Assembly: GCA_019683805.1 (NCBI GenBank)
Contig: JADGHQ010000023.1
Location: forward strand, 1 to 35,915
Direction: 5' to 3'
Length of the DNA stretch: 35,915 bases
Source: Thermoleophilaceae bacterium
Lineage (GTDB): Bacteria; Actinomycetota; Thermoleophilia; Solirubrobacterales; Thermoleophilaceae
This document shows positions 31,905 through 35,907 of the stretch, in pieces. Every line of letters starts with the position of its first letter. Position 1 is the first letter of the stretch. The translations under genes and the position numbers were made by a program. Under the pieces are notes generated by a model that was not told where the DNA came from, did not search any database, and was given only the letters and a program-made list of their open reading frames with translations.

Positions 31905-32507
31905 CTAGGCCCGATCCCCGAAGACCGCCGCGAGGCGGTCACGCAGCCTTTCGACCTCCTCGTCGTTCAGCACCCGCGAGCGGCGCTCGAGGTGACGGAC
32001 GAGCATTCGCGCGGGGAGGACGGTGACCCCACGAGCCCAGCCGACCGCCGGCTCGAGGTAGGCGCGGCTGAAGACGAGCAGCGGGGTGACCGGCTTGCCG
32101 GTCACCCGCTCGAGCGCCTTCTTCTGTGCGTACGCCTGACGGAGCATGCGCGGGTCAAGCGAGTCGAGCGCACGTCGGCCCGGGTGGCTCTTGGTCTCGA
32201 TCGTGAAGAGGCCGCCAGGGCCGACCACGATGTGATCCACGTTGCCCCGCCCAAGCGAGATGTCGTGGAACGCGAACCAGCCGCGCGCCGCGAGGTCGTC
32301 GAGGATGCGCCCGACCGCCTCCTCCCCCGCCGCCCCGCGCCGCCAGCGCTCGACGGTCGGCACGACCCAGCGATCGAGCGCGGAGACCACGACGATGTCC
32401 ACGGCGAGCGTGACGAGGAACGCCCGGCTCTGGAACCCCGCGACAAGGCCGACGACCGCGGAGACGCCGGCGAGCGCGCCGATCGACGCGATCGCCCTGC
32501 GAGCCAT
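31905..32507 (-). CDS. Membrane protein with nuclease-related domain (NERD)
   Basis: 200 residues from ATG 32507; a longer frame to 32555 is possible. Two hydrophobic segments, about 6-24 and 29-46, anchor a cytoplasmic NERD domain that begins GAAGEEAVGRILDDL and continues NVDHIVVGPGGLFTIETKSH. The nuclease-type residues Glu62, Asp91, Glu104 and Lys106 are visible. The C-terminal part (RVLNDEEVERLRDRL) is helical. NERD proteins are predicted DNA- or RNA-processing enzymes of unclear role. No partner gene is adjacent. Confidence 0.88.
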   Translation of the reverse strand: MARRAIASIGALAGVSAVVGLVAGFQSRAFLVTLAVDIVVVSALDRWVVPTVERWRRGAAGEEAVGRILDDLAARGWFAFHDISLGRGNVDHIVVGPGGLFTIETKSHPGRRALDSLDPRMLRQAYAQKKALERVTGKPVTPLLVFSRAYLEPAVGWARGVTVLPARMLVRHLERRSRVLNDEEVERLRDRLAAVFGDRA

Positions 32508-32612
32508 CCGCCGGGTTCTTGCGCGGGCGTGCTGTCCTGGAGCACGGCGTGGCACGTCGCCAACATCGGCACGCCCACGTGCAGACGTGAGGCTCGCAAG
32601 CCGCCTCCTCCG

Positions 32613-32787: not shown

Positions 32788-33033
32788 TCACGCCGGGCCG
32801 TCGCCCTCGGATCCCTCCGCGCCGGGGGTGTAGGGCACGCCCGGGTACTGGCCCGAGGTCGAGACGGGCGGCAGGGTGACGGGCGTGGCGCCCGGCGGCG
32901 TCGCGACCGCGACCTGCCCCACCTCCACGTCGTCGCGCTCGCGCGCACGCGCGAGCACGTCGTCGACGATCTCACCGGCCTCGGCGAGCGAGCCCGCCTG
33001 GAGCCTGAAGACGACCATGGCCTCAACCTTCAT
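32788..33033 (-). CDS. Small conserved-looking protein of unknown function
   Basis: 81 residues from ATG 33033 with GGGAGGT six bases upstream. Residues 1-50 form a small alpha/beta unit (MKVEAMVVFRLQAGS, then an amphipathic helix AEAGEIVDDVLARARERD and a strand VGQVAVAT); the remaining 30 residues are Pro/Gly-rich and probably disordered. No cysteine, no signal peptide. I do not recognise it. It is divergent from the sigma-like locus with 143 bases between. Confidence 0.65.
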   Translation of the reverse strand: MKVEAMVVFRLQAGSLAEAGEIVDDVLARARERDDVEVGQVAVATPPGATPVTLPPVSTSGQYPGVPYTPGAEGSEGDGPA

Positions 33034-33176
33034 CTGCGCACCTCCCGGGAAGATCGACGCGTCACAGCGGTGACACCCTGACCGGAGGTTCCCCGCCGCG
33101 CGCCGATCTCAGGCCACGCCCCAAGCCCCGGGCGCTCCCTTGTCGGGTTACCGGGCCGTCCGTCGACTCCCCCCTC

Positions 33177-33527
33177 GTGGCCCACCGCGCCTTCCGCGAC
33201 CTCGACGACGGCGAGCTGCTCGAGCTCTTCCTCGAGCACCGCGAAGCTGGCGATCCCGACGCCCGGCAGCGGGCGCAGCTCGCCTGGTCGGTGCTGACGG
33301 CCCGCCACATCGACCGGGTCCGCAGCTACGTCGTCGTCTCCCTCCACCGCAACGGCGGCGCCGGCTCGAACGTCGCCGTGCGCGACGAGGCGGTCAGGCT
33401 CGCCGTCGCGCGGCTGCTCGCGCTCGCGCCGAGCTTCGCGGGCGGGTCGCTGGGGGACTTCCGCCGGGCCGTGCGCCGGGCGGCGAAGCTGGCGTGCGCG
33501 GATGCGCTAGCGGGCAAGAAACGATGA
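33177..33527 (+). CDS. Sigma-region-2-only protein, paralogue of the next gene
   Basis: 116 residues from GTG 33177. Position by position it parallels the first 120 residues of the sigma-like factor at 33612: D-x-E-L-x-x-LF, then W-x-x-L-x-AR-x-x-x-R-x-R, a hydrophobic helix ending in L, FxGG, and a basic FRxA helix ending with ACADAL where the other has TCMDRC. It stops where region 2 ends, so it has no region 4 and cannot recognise a -35 element. No ribosome binding site is evident, suggesting a leaderless mRNA. It might compete for RNA polymerase or act as a decoy for an anti-sigma factor. Confidence 0.65.
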   Translation: MAHRAFRDLDDGELLELFLEHREAGDPDARQRAQLAWSVLTARHIDRVRSYVVVSLHRNGGAGSNVAVRDEAVRLAVARLLALAPSFAGGSLGDFRRAVRRAAKLACADALAGKKR

Positions 33528-33611
33528 GCGGCATCGCAACCGACCGACGGCGGTGCGATAGTTGGCGCTTCGGCCCAACTCGCTGCGCCCCCATGGCGCG
33601 CCTTCGCACCC

Positions 33612-34301
33612 GTGACGCACGCGAAAGACGTACCCCTGGAGCAGCGCTCGGACGACGAGCTCATCGCGCTCTTCGCGCGCTACCGCGACGCCGCCTCGAT
33701 CGCCGAGCGGAAGCTCGCCGTCCGCTCCTGGCACATCCTCATCGCACGCGCGCACGAGCGGATCCGCGGCTGGGTTGCGGCGTTCCGCTTCCCCGGGCAC
33801 CCCGATGTGCGGGTCCCGGCCTCGGACATCGACGACGTCGTCCAGCAGGCGCTCGAGCGCTGCCTCGAGAGGCTCGTGGAGAGCTTCCGGGGCGGGACGG
33901 CGGCGGAGTTCCGGGCGGCGCTCAAGACCTGCGTGTATTTCACGTGCATGGACCGTTGCCGCGAGGCGATGCGGCGCGAGATGGCGATCGTCGGCAGCCT
34001 CGACGAGACGGTCCCGGCCGGCGACGACGGCGACGCGCAGGGGCGCTTCGACCAGGCGCTCGCGCGGGACGCGGCGCGCGCGGAGGACGACCGCTCCGCC
34101 GCGGCGCTCGCGCTGCACGCGATCATCCAGGCGATCGACGATGTGCCCAACAGCGACATGCGCGCCGTGATCCGCCTCACCATGCAGGGCTACAGCTCCC
34201 GCGAGATCGCCGAGGAGCTGGAGAAGACCGTCGCTAACGTGGACCAGCTGCGCTCGCGCGGAATACGCAAGCTCAGGGAGATCCTCGACCGCGATGACTG
34301 A
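33612..34301 (+). CDS. RNA polymerase sigma-70-like (ECF-type) factor
   Basis: 229 residues from GTG 33612. Region 2 covers about 40-122 (ASDIDDVVQQALERCLERLVESF, then FRAALKTCVYFTCMDRCREAM, corresponding to the -10 recognition helix). A charged linker at 130-165 is followed by region 4, about 165-226, with the helix-turn-helix GYSSREIAEELEKTVANVDQLRSRGIRKLREIL. It is divergent from the well-known ECF groups. There is no ribosome binding site, so leaderless translation is likely. It overlaps the next gene by 8 bases, which places the putative anti-sigma partner in the same transcript. Confidence 0.85.
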   Translation: MTHAKDVPLEQRSDDELIALFARYRDAASIAERKLAVRSWHILIARAHERIRGWVAAFRFPGHPDVRVPASDIDDVVQQALERCLERLVESFRGGTAAEFRAALKTCVYFTCMDRCREAMRREMAIVGSLDETVPAGDDGDAQGRFDQALARDAARAEDDRSAAALALHAIIQAIDDVPNSDMRAVIRLTMQGYSSREIAEELEKTVANVDQLRSRGIRKLREILDRDD

Positions 34302-34932
34302 CATCGACCGCCTGCTGAGCGAGTTCGTCGACGCCTGGAACGCGGGCGAGCGCCCGCGCGTCGAGGAGTACCTCGCGCGCGCGCCCGAGGATCGGCGGGA
34401 CGAGCTGGCGGACCTGATCGAGGCGTTCCTCGACGTGGCGCCGACGCCCGACTACTCGCCCGAGACCCTCGAGGAGCTGATGCGGCACCCGGCCGTGCTG
34501 GCGAGCGTCGAGGCGCTCGAGGGGCGCTCGGGCCTCTGGCCCTCCCTCCTTCCCCGCCTGCGCCGACGCGCGCGGCTGCGGCGGGACCAGGTCGTGTCGG
34601 CGCTCGTCGAGCGGCTCGGGATCGAGGGCAGCGAGGAGAAGACCGCCCGCTACCTCCACGAGCTCGAGACGGGCACGCTCGCCGCGGCGGGCGTGTCGCG
34701 CCGGGTGATCGAGGCGCTCGCGGGCGTGCTCGGCGCAAGCGCGGCTGAGCTCGAGCGCGGGGCGGACTTTCGCGGCCTCGGCACAGGCGGAGCCGAGCCC
34801 GTCTACCTGCGCGCGGAGCCGGGCGCGGAGCCGCGCGAGGTGCGGCTCGACCGCCCGGGGCCGCCGCCCGAGAGCGAATGGGACGAGGTCGACAGGCTCT
34901 TCCTGGGCGGGCGCGAGGAGGCGGGGCGCTGA
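34294..34932 (+). CDS. XRE-like protein with N-terminal acidic helical domain, possible anti-sigma
   Basis: 212 residues from ATG 34294, overlapping the sigma gene by 8 bases. Residues 1-50 (LLSEFVDAWNAGERPRVEEYLARAPEDRRDELADLIE) are like the N-terminal helical module of some serine/threonine kinases and sigma partners. Residues about 86-150 resemble an XRE/Cro-type helix-turn-helix: LRRRARLRRDQVVSALVERLG, KTARYLHELETG, VSRRVIEALAGVLG. The last 60 residues are Pro/acidic and probably flexible, a plausible cleavage target. Next to an ImmA-type protease it recalls ImmR and DdrO, the cleaved partners of ImmA and IrrE. Whether it binds DNA or the sigma factor is unknown. Confidence 0.75.
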   Translation: MTDIDRLLSEFVDAWNAGERPRVEEYLARAPEDRRDELADLIEAFLDVAPTPDYSPETLEELMRHPAVLASVEALEGRSGLWPSLLPRLRRRARLRRDQVVSALVERLGIEGSEEKTARYLHELETGTLAAAGVSRRVIEALAGVLGASAAELERGADFRGLGTGGAEPVYLRAEPGAEPREVRLDRPGPPPESEWDEVDRLFLGGREEAGR

Positions 34933-35528
34933 ACGAGACGATCGCCCGTGCCTTCCGCGCGGAGGCCGTCGCGGAGCGCGAGCTCGAGCGCGTGCCGGAC
35001 TGGCTGTGGGACGGCCAGGAGCTGCCCGTTCCGGTGGAGGCGATCGCCGACAGCCACTACGGCCTGCTCGTGCGCGAGGGCGAGGACCTCGCGCAGCTCG
35101 CCGGGATCGAGAGCGGGGGCACCGTGAGCGGCCTGCTCCTGCCGGGGGCGCGGGAGATCTGGGTCGACGCGGAGGAGGCCGAGCGGGTGCCGGCGCGCCG
35201 CCGCTTCACGATCGGACACGAGCTCGGCCACTGGGTGCTCGACTGCCGGCAGGGGGTCGGCCGCTCCGCCGGCCTCGTCCACTGCCGGAGCGCGCAGGTG
35301 CGCGAGGGGATGGACGCCGGGGCCGACGCCCACGCCGCCGCGCTCGAGGAGTACCCGCCCGCCGAGCTCGACGCCAACCAGTTCGCGGCGGCGCTGCTCA
35401 TGCCGCGCGAGCTCGTGCTGCGCGAGCACGAGCGCCTGCGGGGCGACGAGCGGGCGCTCTGCGCGACGTTCCGGGTCTCGCGGCTCGCGCTGCAGCGCCG
35501 GCTCTGGTTCCTGAGCATCCCGCGCTGA
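34929..35528 (+). CDS. ImmA/IrrE-family metallopeptidase
   Basis: 199 residues if translation begins at CTG 34929, which is seven bases after a perfect GAGGAGG (34915-34921) and overlaps the previous stop as CTGA; ATG 34878 in the same frame would give 216 residues but has a poor ribosome binding site. The zinc motif HELGH (His97, Glu98, His101) is intact, and ELDANQFAAALLMP, about 146-159, is the conserved second block with the probable third ligand Glu146. The N-terminal 60 residues and the C-terminal FRVSRLALQRRLWFL, which resembles a helix-turn-helix, match the family. Such proteases cleave an XRE-type repressor upon stress or induction; here the adjacent XRE-like protein is the likely substrate. 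Confidence 0.92.
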   Translation: MNETIARAFRAEAVAERELERVPDWLWDGQELPVPVEAIADSHYGLLVREGEDLAQLAGIESGGTVSGLLLPGAREIWVDAEEAERVPARRRFTIGHELGHWVLDCRQGVGRSAGLVHCRSAQVREGMDAGADAHAAALEEYPPAELDANQFAAALLMPRELVLREHERLRGDERALCATFRVSRLALQRRLWFLSIPR

Positions 35529-35586: not shown

Positions 35587-35907
35587 CTACCGCCCCACCG
35601 CCGCCGTCATCCGCCGCTCGATCCGCGCGAGCAGCAAGGCGGCGCTGCGGACGGCACGCGCCCGACGCGTGACCCGCACCACCACCCTGCCCGATGTGCG
35701 CCGTCCGGCGGCCGGCGAGGTGGACACGACGCGCCCCGGCCGACGCCCCTGCCGGACGCTGACGATCCGGTAGCGGCAACCCGCGCGCCGCAGCTTGCGG
35801 ACCGCCGCCGAGCGCGTCAGCCCGCCCACCCGCGGGACGCGGCAGCGCCGCGGCGCGCCGCGCTCCGGGGAGGCCGACTGCTGCTGCTCGGACTGTGCAG
35901 GCGGCTG
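35587..35907 (-). pseudogene. PASTA-domain fragment, probably frameshifted or truncated
   Basis: The minus-strand frame has a PASTA-type pattern: CRVPRVGGLTRSAAVRKLRR, then VRQGRRPGRVVSTSP and AAGRRTSGRVVVRV. PASTA domains bind peptidoglycan or muropeptides and are usually C-terminal in secreted or membrane proteins. The only possible start is GTG 35829, inside the domain after its first strand. Upstream, a Gln/Ser/Pro linker continues to about 35907 and then meets TGA and TAG in frame. So the domain has lost its N-terminal protein by frameshift or nonsense change, or its start is misjudged. A read error near the window edge is also possible. Confidence 0.4.

Follow-up and report, generated by a model that had tools for sequence, protein, structure and literature searches.

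Why should a sigma factor be kept next to a soluble protease and a helix-turn-helix protein? The anti-sigma factors from which ECF sigma factors are released are usually of the membrane or zinc type. The question is raised by four genes, all on the plus strand, at the right end of one whole contig of 35,915 bases (the window) from a draft genome of 2.56 Mb: a sigma-2-only gene, an ECF-type sigma gene, a gene for an XRE-like protein, and a gene for an M78 (ImmA/IrrE) metalloprotease. The last three are referred to here as the triad. A reading of the sequence alone had placed them at 33612, 34294 and 34929 and suggested that the protease might remove the XRE-like protein from the sigma factor; all three genes were found at these coordinates. 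The features of the locus are as follows (G212 is the genome of the closest relative).

33141..33167, plus strand: ECF-type promoter, TGTCGG (-35)-N17-CGAC (-10), with a GTG 9 nt past the -10
33177..33527, plus strand: sigma region-2-only paralogue, probable first gene of the operon (likeness to the first half of the sigma factor)
33554..33568, plus strand: TGCGATAGTTGGCGC, 15-mer in the gap preceding the sigma gene (conserved between the window and G212)
33612..34301, plus strand: ECF-type sigma factor, regions 2 and 4 (TIGR02937, Sigma70_r4_2 and ECF structure matches)
34294..34932, plus strand: XRE-like protein, 212 aa, proposed anti-sigma factor and protease substrate (alignment, model)
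34294..34521, plus strand: N-terminal domain (residues 1-76), helical and acidic, putative sigma-binding part (model, charge, protein of locus L096)
34528..34773, plus strand: XRE-fold helix-turn-helix, residues 79-160 (fold comparison)
34801..34812, plus strand: VYLR stretch in the linker, speculative candidate cleavage region (nearly invariant R173)
34882..34911, plus strand: conserved C-terminal motif DEVDRLFLGG, predicted helix (alignment, model)
34916..34921, plus strand: AGGAGG, ribosome-binding site of the protease gene (sequence reading)
34929..35528, plus strand: M78 (ImmA/IrrE) metalloprotease with a CTG start (PF06114; HELGH at 35217-35231)

Gene order in the window and across the class

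The four genes probably form one operon, to judge from the sequence. The start of the XRE-like gene overlaps the sigma stop by 8 nt, and in CTGA the CTG start of the M78 gene overlaps the stop of the XRE-like gene; a perfect AGGAGG lies 7 nt upstream of this start. The CTGA junction is also present in G212. Since the promoter in the window stands 9 nt before its GTG, the sigma-2-only gene is the probable first gene of the four. Its product resembles the first half of the sigma factor (phmmer 5e-10). It had been suggested as a possible fourth part of the system. Although it probably heads the operon here, it is a lineage-specific addition and not a standing part; among the loci it was found only in the window and G212.

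The 15-mer TGCGATAGTTGGCGC is shared without change by the window and G212, although the gap around it, ahead of the sigma gene, otherwise differs. An inverted repeat (AGTTGG...CCAACT) overlaps it in the window, and the 15-mer is possibly a second promoter or a processing site. The surroundings of the operon, all on the minus strand, comprise a NERD (nuclease-related) domain protein (31908-32555; PF08378, 2.4e-16), a divergent 81-aa gene without assigned family (32788-33033), and, at the contig end, a reading frame that by appearance resembles a PASTA-type repeat (35587-35829).

The XRE-like protein is present in 83 of 299 genomes of the class by homologue search. By profile search it was found in 104 of 399 genomes of the class; the count for the order is 82 of 232 genomes and takes in a few weak matches to the helix-turn-helix only. 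One genome of the phylum beyond the class matches strongly and carries the full triad (G373, locus L139). Matching named records are mostly Thermoleophilia or Actinomycetota, and two bins are probably mislabelled. A single-protein homologue search of genome contigs gave no match, and no XRE-like homologues were found in the plasmid and phage collections.

Gene order was counted in 119 loci, of which 115 are informative for the sigma gene. In 113 of these 115 the XRE-like gene directly follows a sigma gene of the same strand, and the two reading frames overlap in 86 of 114 loci. An M78 gene lies within 800 nt in 102 of 110 loci (69 co-directional and 33 convergent), and five of the remaining eight have one farther away within the fetched stretch. 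Only two XRE-like copies were seen to be without a sigma gene, and at least one of them is truncated (L103, visibly). Conservation of the gene order in Thermoleophilia relatives, on which the sequence-only reading had staked its proposal, thus holds strongly (113/115 and 102/110). The arrangement is not due to chance, because the order is conserved across the class, and by sequence comparison the sigma, XRE-like and M78 genes are a stable three-gene module. Mean column identity is 32% in each of the XRE-like and M78 alignments and only 23% in the sigma alignment; gene linkage has therefore outlived most of the sequence.

Variants of the arrangement were also seen. The convergent M78 proteins are often of a more divergent subtype with LAHELGH (L032, L033, L035, L041, L083 and others), so that the protease has apparently been swapped with the association kept. 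In six loci (L036, L034, L145, L146, L147 and L060) a small HDPIAFLRFVLRSGD-like gene of 61-79 aa, with its own TGTCAG-type promoter, stands between the XRE-like and M78 genes.

The three proteins of the triad

The sigma protein (229 aa) matches TIGR02937 at 2e-14 and Sigma70_r4_2 at 2.9e-07, the latter exceeding the Pfam cut-off, and the profile of its family matches solved ECF sigma factors at 9e-23. It belongs to the ECF sigma factors in having regions 2 and 4 only. A fused C-terminal regulatory domain is absent: the region 4 match spans residues 170-221, and the protein ends right after it.

The M78 protein matches PF06114 at 1.8e-13 (50.8 bits, against a cut-off of 22). Its HELGH motif, which had been called intact, is so: H97, E98, H101 and E146, that is, HExxH and the third glutamate ligand, are invariant in 58 co-aligned M78 members, and all metal ligands are present. 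The protein is closest to CapP (profile 1.7e-19, fold Z 16.0), and its fold also resembles that of IrrE/PprI (Z 12-13). Its 199 residues align through the last with residues 7-184 of CapP, and it ends where the C-terminal GAF-like domain of CapP and PprI would begin. CapP and IrrE/PprI proteases cleave XRE-type partners, and the GAF-like domain is required for activation of PprI by ssDNA (PMC10904395). The lack of this sensing domain counts against the switch model considered below.

For the XRE-like protein no Pfam model passes its cut-off. HTH_31 comes to 0.039 (14.7 bits against 27) and is matched by 23 of 72 family members at E ≤ 0.05. The helix-turn-helix that had been suspected from the sequence, sub-threshold in Pfam, is borne out as a fold by an AlphaFold2 model built from 72 relatives (pLDDT 88). 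In the model, helices extend to residue 75 and the XRE domain occupies residues 79-160; the linker is weakly ordered, and the tail motif lies in a short helix predicted with confidence. The modelled XRE domain resembles those of SinR (Z 8.7), CapH (8.0), DdrO (7.6) and ImmR (7.3), with an aligned span about 13 residues longer than in these proteins. Nearly invariant residues in the family alignment are R90, E125, G127, L129, R173, D200, L202 and F203, and the tail motif, DEVDRLFLGG in the window, is a nearly invariant DEVDxLFxGG across the family. By reading, the window protein has no cysteine (and so no HxxxCxxC) and no long hydrophobic segment or transmembrane helix.

The N-terminal domain has a mean net charge of -7, and the whole protein a mean pI of about 5. 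Fold searching gave no match confined to residues 1-76, from which novelty of the fold does not follow, and a search for the domain in other proteins gave no convincing match beyond the XRE-like family. The domain may resemble the N-termini of planctomycete kinases adjoining ECF sigma factors; a literature search found nothing on this likeness. Sequence matches in the PDB to the XRE-like profile were rejected as relatives, since they are designed helical proteins and weak matches. No natural fusion of sigma and XRE-like proteins was seen. Locus L096 contains a second sigma gene whose reading frame overlaps one that encodes just the N-terminal domain (about 78 aa; L096:6101-7217), and this second pair faces the same single M78 gene as the intact pair of the locus. 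The shortened gene could instead reflect decay.

The promoter and its likely targets

Ahead of the sigma genes, TGTCAG or CGTAAG is strongly over-represented. Both hexamers form the left part of a two-part element: [CT]GTCAG-N17-CGAC in the order to which the window belongs and CGTAAG-N18-[CT]GAC in other families. The element is 36 times denser upstream of the sigma gene than in the rest of the loci and was found there in 69 of 119 loci; about 40% have no strict match, a point against the switch model considered below. The spacer is sharply preferred: YGTCAG-N17-CGAC gives 129 unique sites, 49 with a nearby ATG, whereas other spacers average about 12 sites, of which about 1 at most is close to an ATG. 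The distance from the -10 to the start codon has a sharp mode at 9 nt, and leaderless transcripts are therefore suggested. The conserved element has a -35/-10 spacing of 16-18 and is not palindromic. Around about 100 aligned promoters no further conserved element, such as an operator, was found; inverted TGTCAG copies occur in some loci, none of them conserved around the aligned promoters. Its layout agrees with that of ECF promoters. Because the start codon and the spacing are fixed and nothing else is conserved, the element is best read as a sigma promoter rather than an operator.

The promoter in the window is one mismatch from the class-wide TGTCAG-N17-CGAC and has the modal distance of 9 nt. 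Its counterpart in G212 is TGTCAA-N17-CGAC, 9 nt before an ATG. The full pattern with an RTG 9 nt on occurs twice in the entire genome of the window, once at this locus; G212 has five occurrences with a start codon, and three of these lie in a 1.2-kb stretch at the triad locus. A control with a 14-nt spacer gave no occurrence in either genome. By sequence pattern, the sigma gene appears to stand under an autoregulatory bipartite promoter, and the sigma factor of the triad would read promoters of the TGTCAG-N17-CGAC type. A promoter of the RecA-NDp/PafBC kind was considered and rejected: its motif, which we take to be TANNNT about 10 nt after TGTCRG, was found at 0 of 122 sites.

In complete genomes the sites with a 17-nt spacer cluster at the triads (e.g., 6 of 9 in G752 and 3 of 6 in G210). 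A large genome-wide regulon was rejected, as N17 sites away from the triads are near the level of the N14 control. The genes behind the promoters encode ARPP-1, a VWA protein, a RecB-like nuclease with an RNase H domain, RmuC, NurA-like and SbcD-like nucleases, a DruE/MrfA-like helicase, an ADP-ribosylglycohydrolase, an AAA+ protein and an HD protein, and in one genome (G009) the M78 gene itself lies behind such a promoter. Repair and conflict functions were assigned on 20 target proteins picked by hand, and because of this choice the repair or conflict flavour of the targets is a lead and not a statistic.

In one genome (G093, loci L181-L182), five further TGTCAG-N17-CGAC promoters form a separate cluster at a distance of 29-37 kb from the triad. 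They precede VWA proteins and proteins without assigned function; genes for an ADP-ribosylglycohydrolase and a DUF6946 protein in the same cluster lie behind CGTCAG variants.

A proposed proteolytic sigma switch, its alternatives and known systems

The shared ECF-type promoter upstream of the sigma gene suggests self-activation, which would need an inhibitor. The XRE-like gene occupies the usual position of an anti-sigma gene, directly downstream on the same strand (113/115) and mostly overlapping (86/114). The XRE-like protein is favoured as the partner of the sigma factor because its gene is linked more tightly to sigma than to M78, and because a second sigma gene in L096 overlaps a gene for the N-terminal domain alone. 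Covariation between the two proteins in 110 pairs (effective number 86) gave top scores within or marginally above a neighbour-swap null, a negative outcome that counts against the proposed binding or is silent on it.

We consider that the triad has a slightly better than even chance of being an autoregulated, cytosolic ECF sigma switch, in which the XRE-like protein holds the sigma factor and cleavage by the M78 protease releases it. From TGTCAG-N17-CGAC promoters, the sigma factor would switch on the operon it belongs to and a few operons nearby. The XRE-like protein, made by translational coupling from the gene next to sigma, would bind the sigma factor and keep it off, probably through the acidic N-terminal helical domain. 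On cue, perhaps DNA damage or invasion, the M78 protease would cleave the XRE-like protein, the cut perhaps falling in the linker between the XRE domain and the DEVDxLFxGG tail. The freed sigma factor would then transcribe more of the operon together with adjacent repair or conflict genes. Against this model, DNA binding by the XRE fold is still conceivable. The fuller statement, that a soluble M78 protease destroys an anti-sigma factor of XRE fold and so frees a sigma factor running a small, locus-bound, LexA-independent repair or defence regulon across the class, is advanced more tentatively, as somewhat short of an even chance.

Among other explanations, the modelled XRE fold, which matches DdrO, CapH and ImmR, and an M78 protease of the same family as CapP and IrrE would suit a DNA-binding repressor of the DdrO, CapH or ImmR kind, removed by M78, with the sigma factor as the first output gene. 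This is unlikely, though by no means negligible, for the sole conserved DNA element is promoter-like and non-palindromic with a start codon 9 nt on, the recognition helix is net negative on average across the family in a protein with a pI of about 5, and the XRE-like gene is bound more tightly to the sigma gene than to M78. More doubtful still is a role of the XRE-like protein as co-activator or promoter-specificity partner of the sigma factor, with M78 cleavage serving as the off or reset step. The near-obligate pairing with sigma and the intact HTH fold would suit a factor bridging sigma and DNA, but a downstream overlapping gene together with positive autoregulation is the usual layout of sigma and anti-sigma genes (PMC3426412). 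Nor is there an extra conserved DNA contact site near the promoters. That the M78 and XRE-like proteins are a toxin-antitoxin or mobile-element pair merely standing beside an ECF sigma gene is very improbable, for, although XRE/M78 pairs occur in mobile elements and antitoxin-type regulators and a weak NF052239 match was seen, no neighbour is more constant than the sigma gene, whose overlap with the XRE-like gene is seen in most loci, the homologues are absent from the plasmid and phage collections searched, and the M78 gene switches orientation among the loci while the sigma/XRE-like arrangement does not.

No published description of a sigma factor paired with an ImmA/IrrE or M78 protease was found in the literature searched, which includes few subscription journals. 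If the switch model is true, the joining of M78/XRE removal with an ECF sigma factor adds a membrane-free proteolytic route to sigma release. The promoter pattern would serve as a direct readout, so that the switch idea is testable in a laboratory strain with three genes and one reporter, and it offers a search handle for co-switched cassettes (nucleases, helicases, ARPP-1, VWA) in poorly studied bacteria.

Several known systems share parts with the triad. CapP/CapH, the CBASS regulator pair, includes the closest relative of the M78 protein, an XRE domain that matches, and defence- or repair-like genes nearby. The triad differs in the added sigma factor, in a protease without the C-terminal domain, in an XRE-like partner with an extra N-terminal domain and a conserved tail, and in control that apparently runs through a sigma promoter instead of an operator. 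IrrE (PprI)/DdrO of Deinococcus is alike in the M78 fold with HExxH and a helical, HTH-like middle part, in an XRE-fold partner, and in DNA-repair genes among the likely targets. In contrast, the triad has no GAF-like ssDNA-sensing domain, and its output apparently runs through an ECF-type promoter and not through relief of repression. As it lacks the sensing domain and includes a sigma factor, the triad is not a full member of either system. ImmA/ImmR of ICEBs1 likewise has a protease and an XRE-type partner in adjacent genes (DNA-binding domain of ImmR, Z 7.3), whereas the triad is class-wide, tied to sigma and absent from the searched plasmids and phages.

On the sigma side, ECF41 has a very close promoter layout, TGTCACA-n16-CGTC, and neighbouring genes as its main or only targets (PMC3426412), but in the triad separate XRE-like and protease genes would take the place of a regulatory domain fused to the C-terminus of sigma. 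RseA with site-2 protease, and the zinc anti-sigma systems, also have the inhibitor gene beside sigma and proteolytic release, the latter being proposed for the triad; the XRE-like protein, however, has neither a transmembrane segment nor a cysteine, and the M78 protease is soluble. Taken together, the comparison suggests that the triad most likely operates as a pair of the CapP/CapH or IrrE/DdrO kind coupled to a local regulon resembling that of ECF41.
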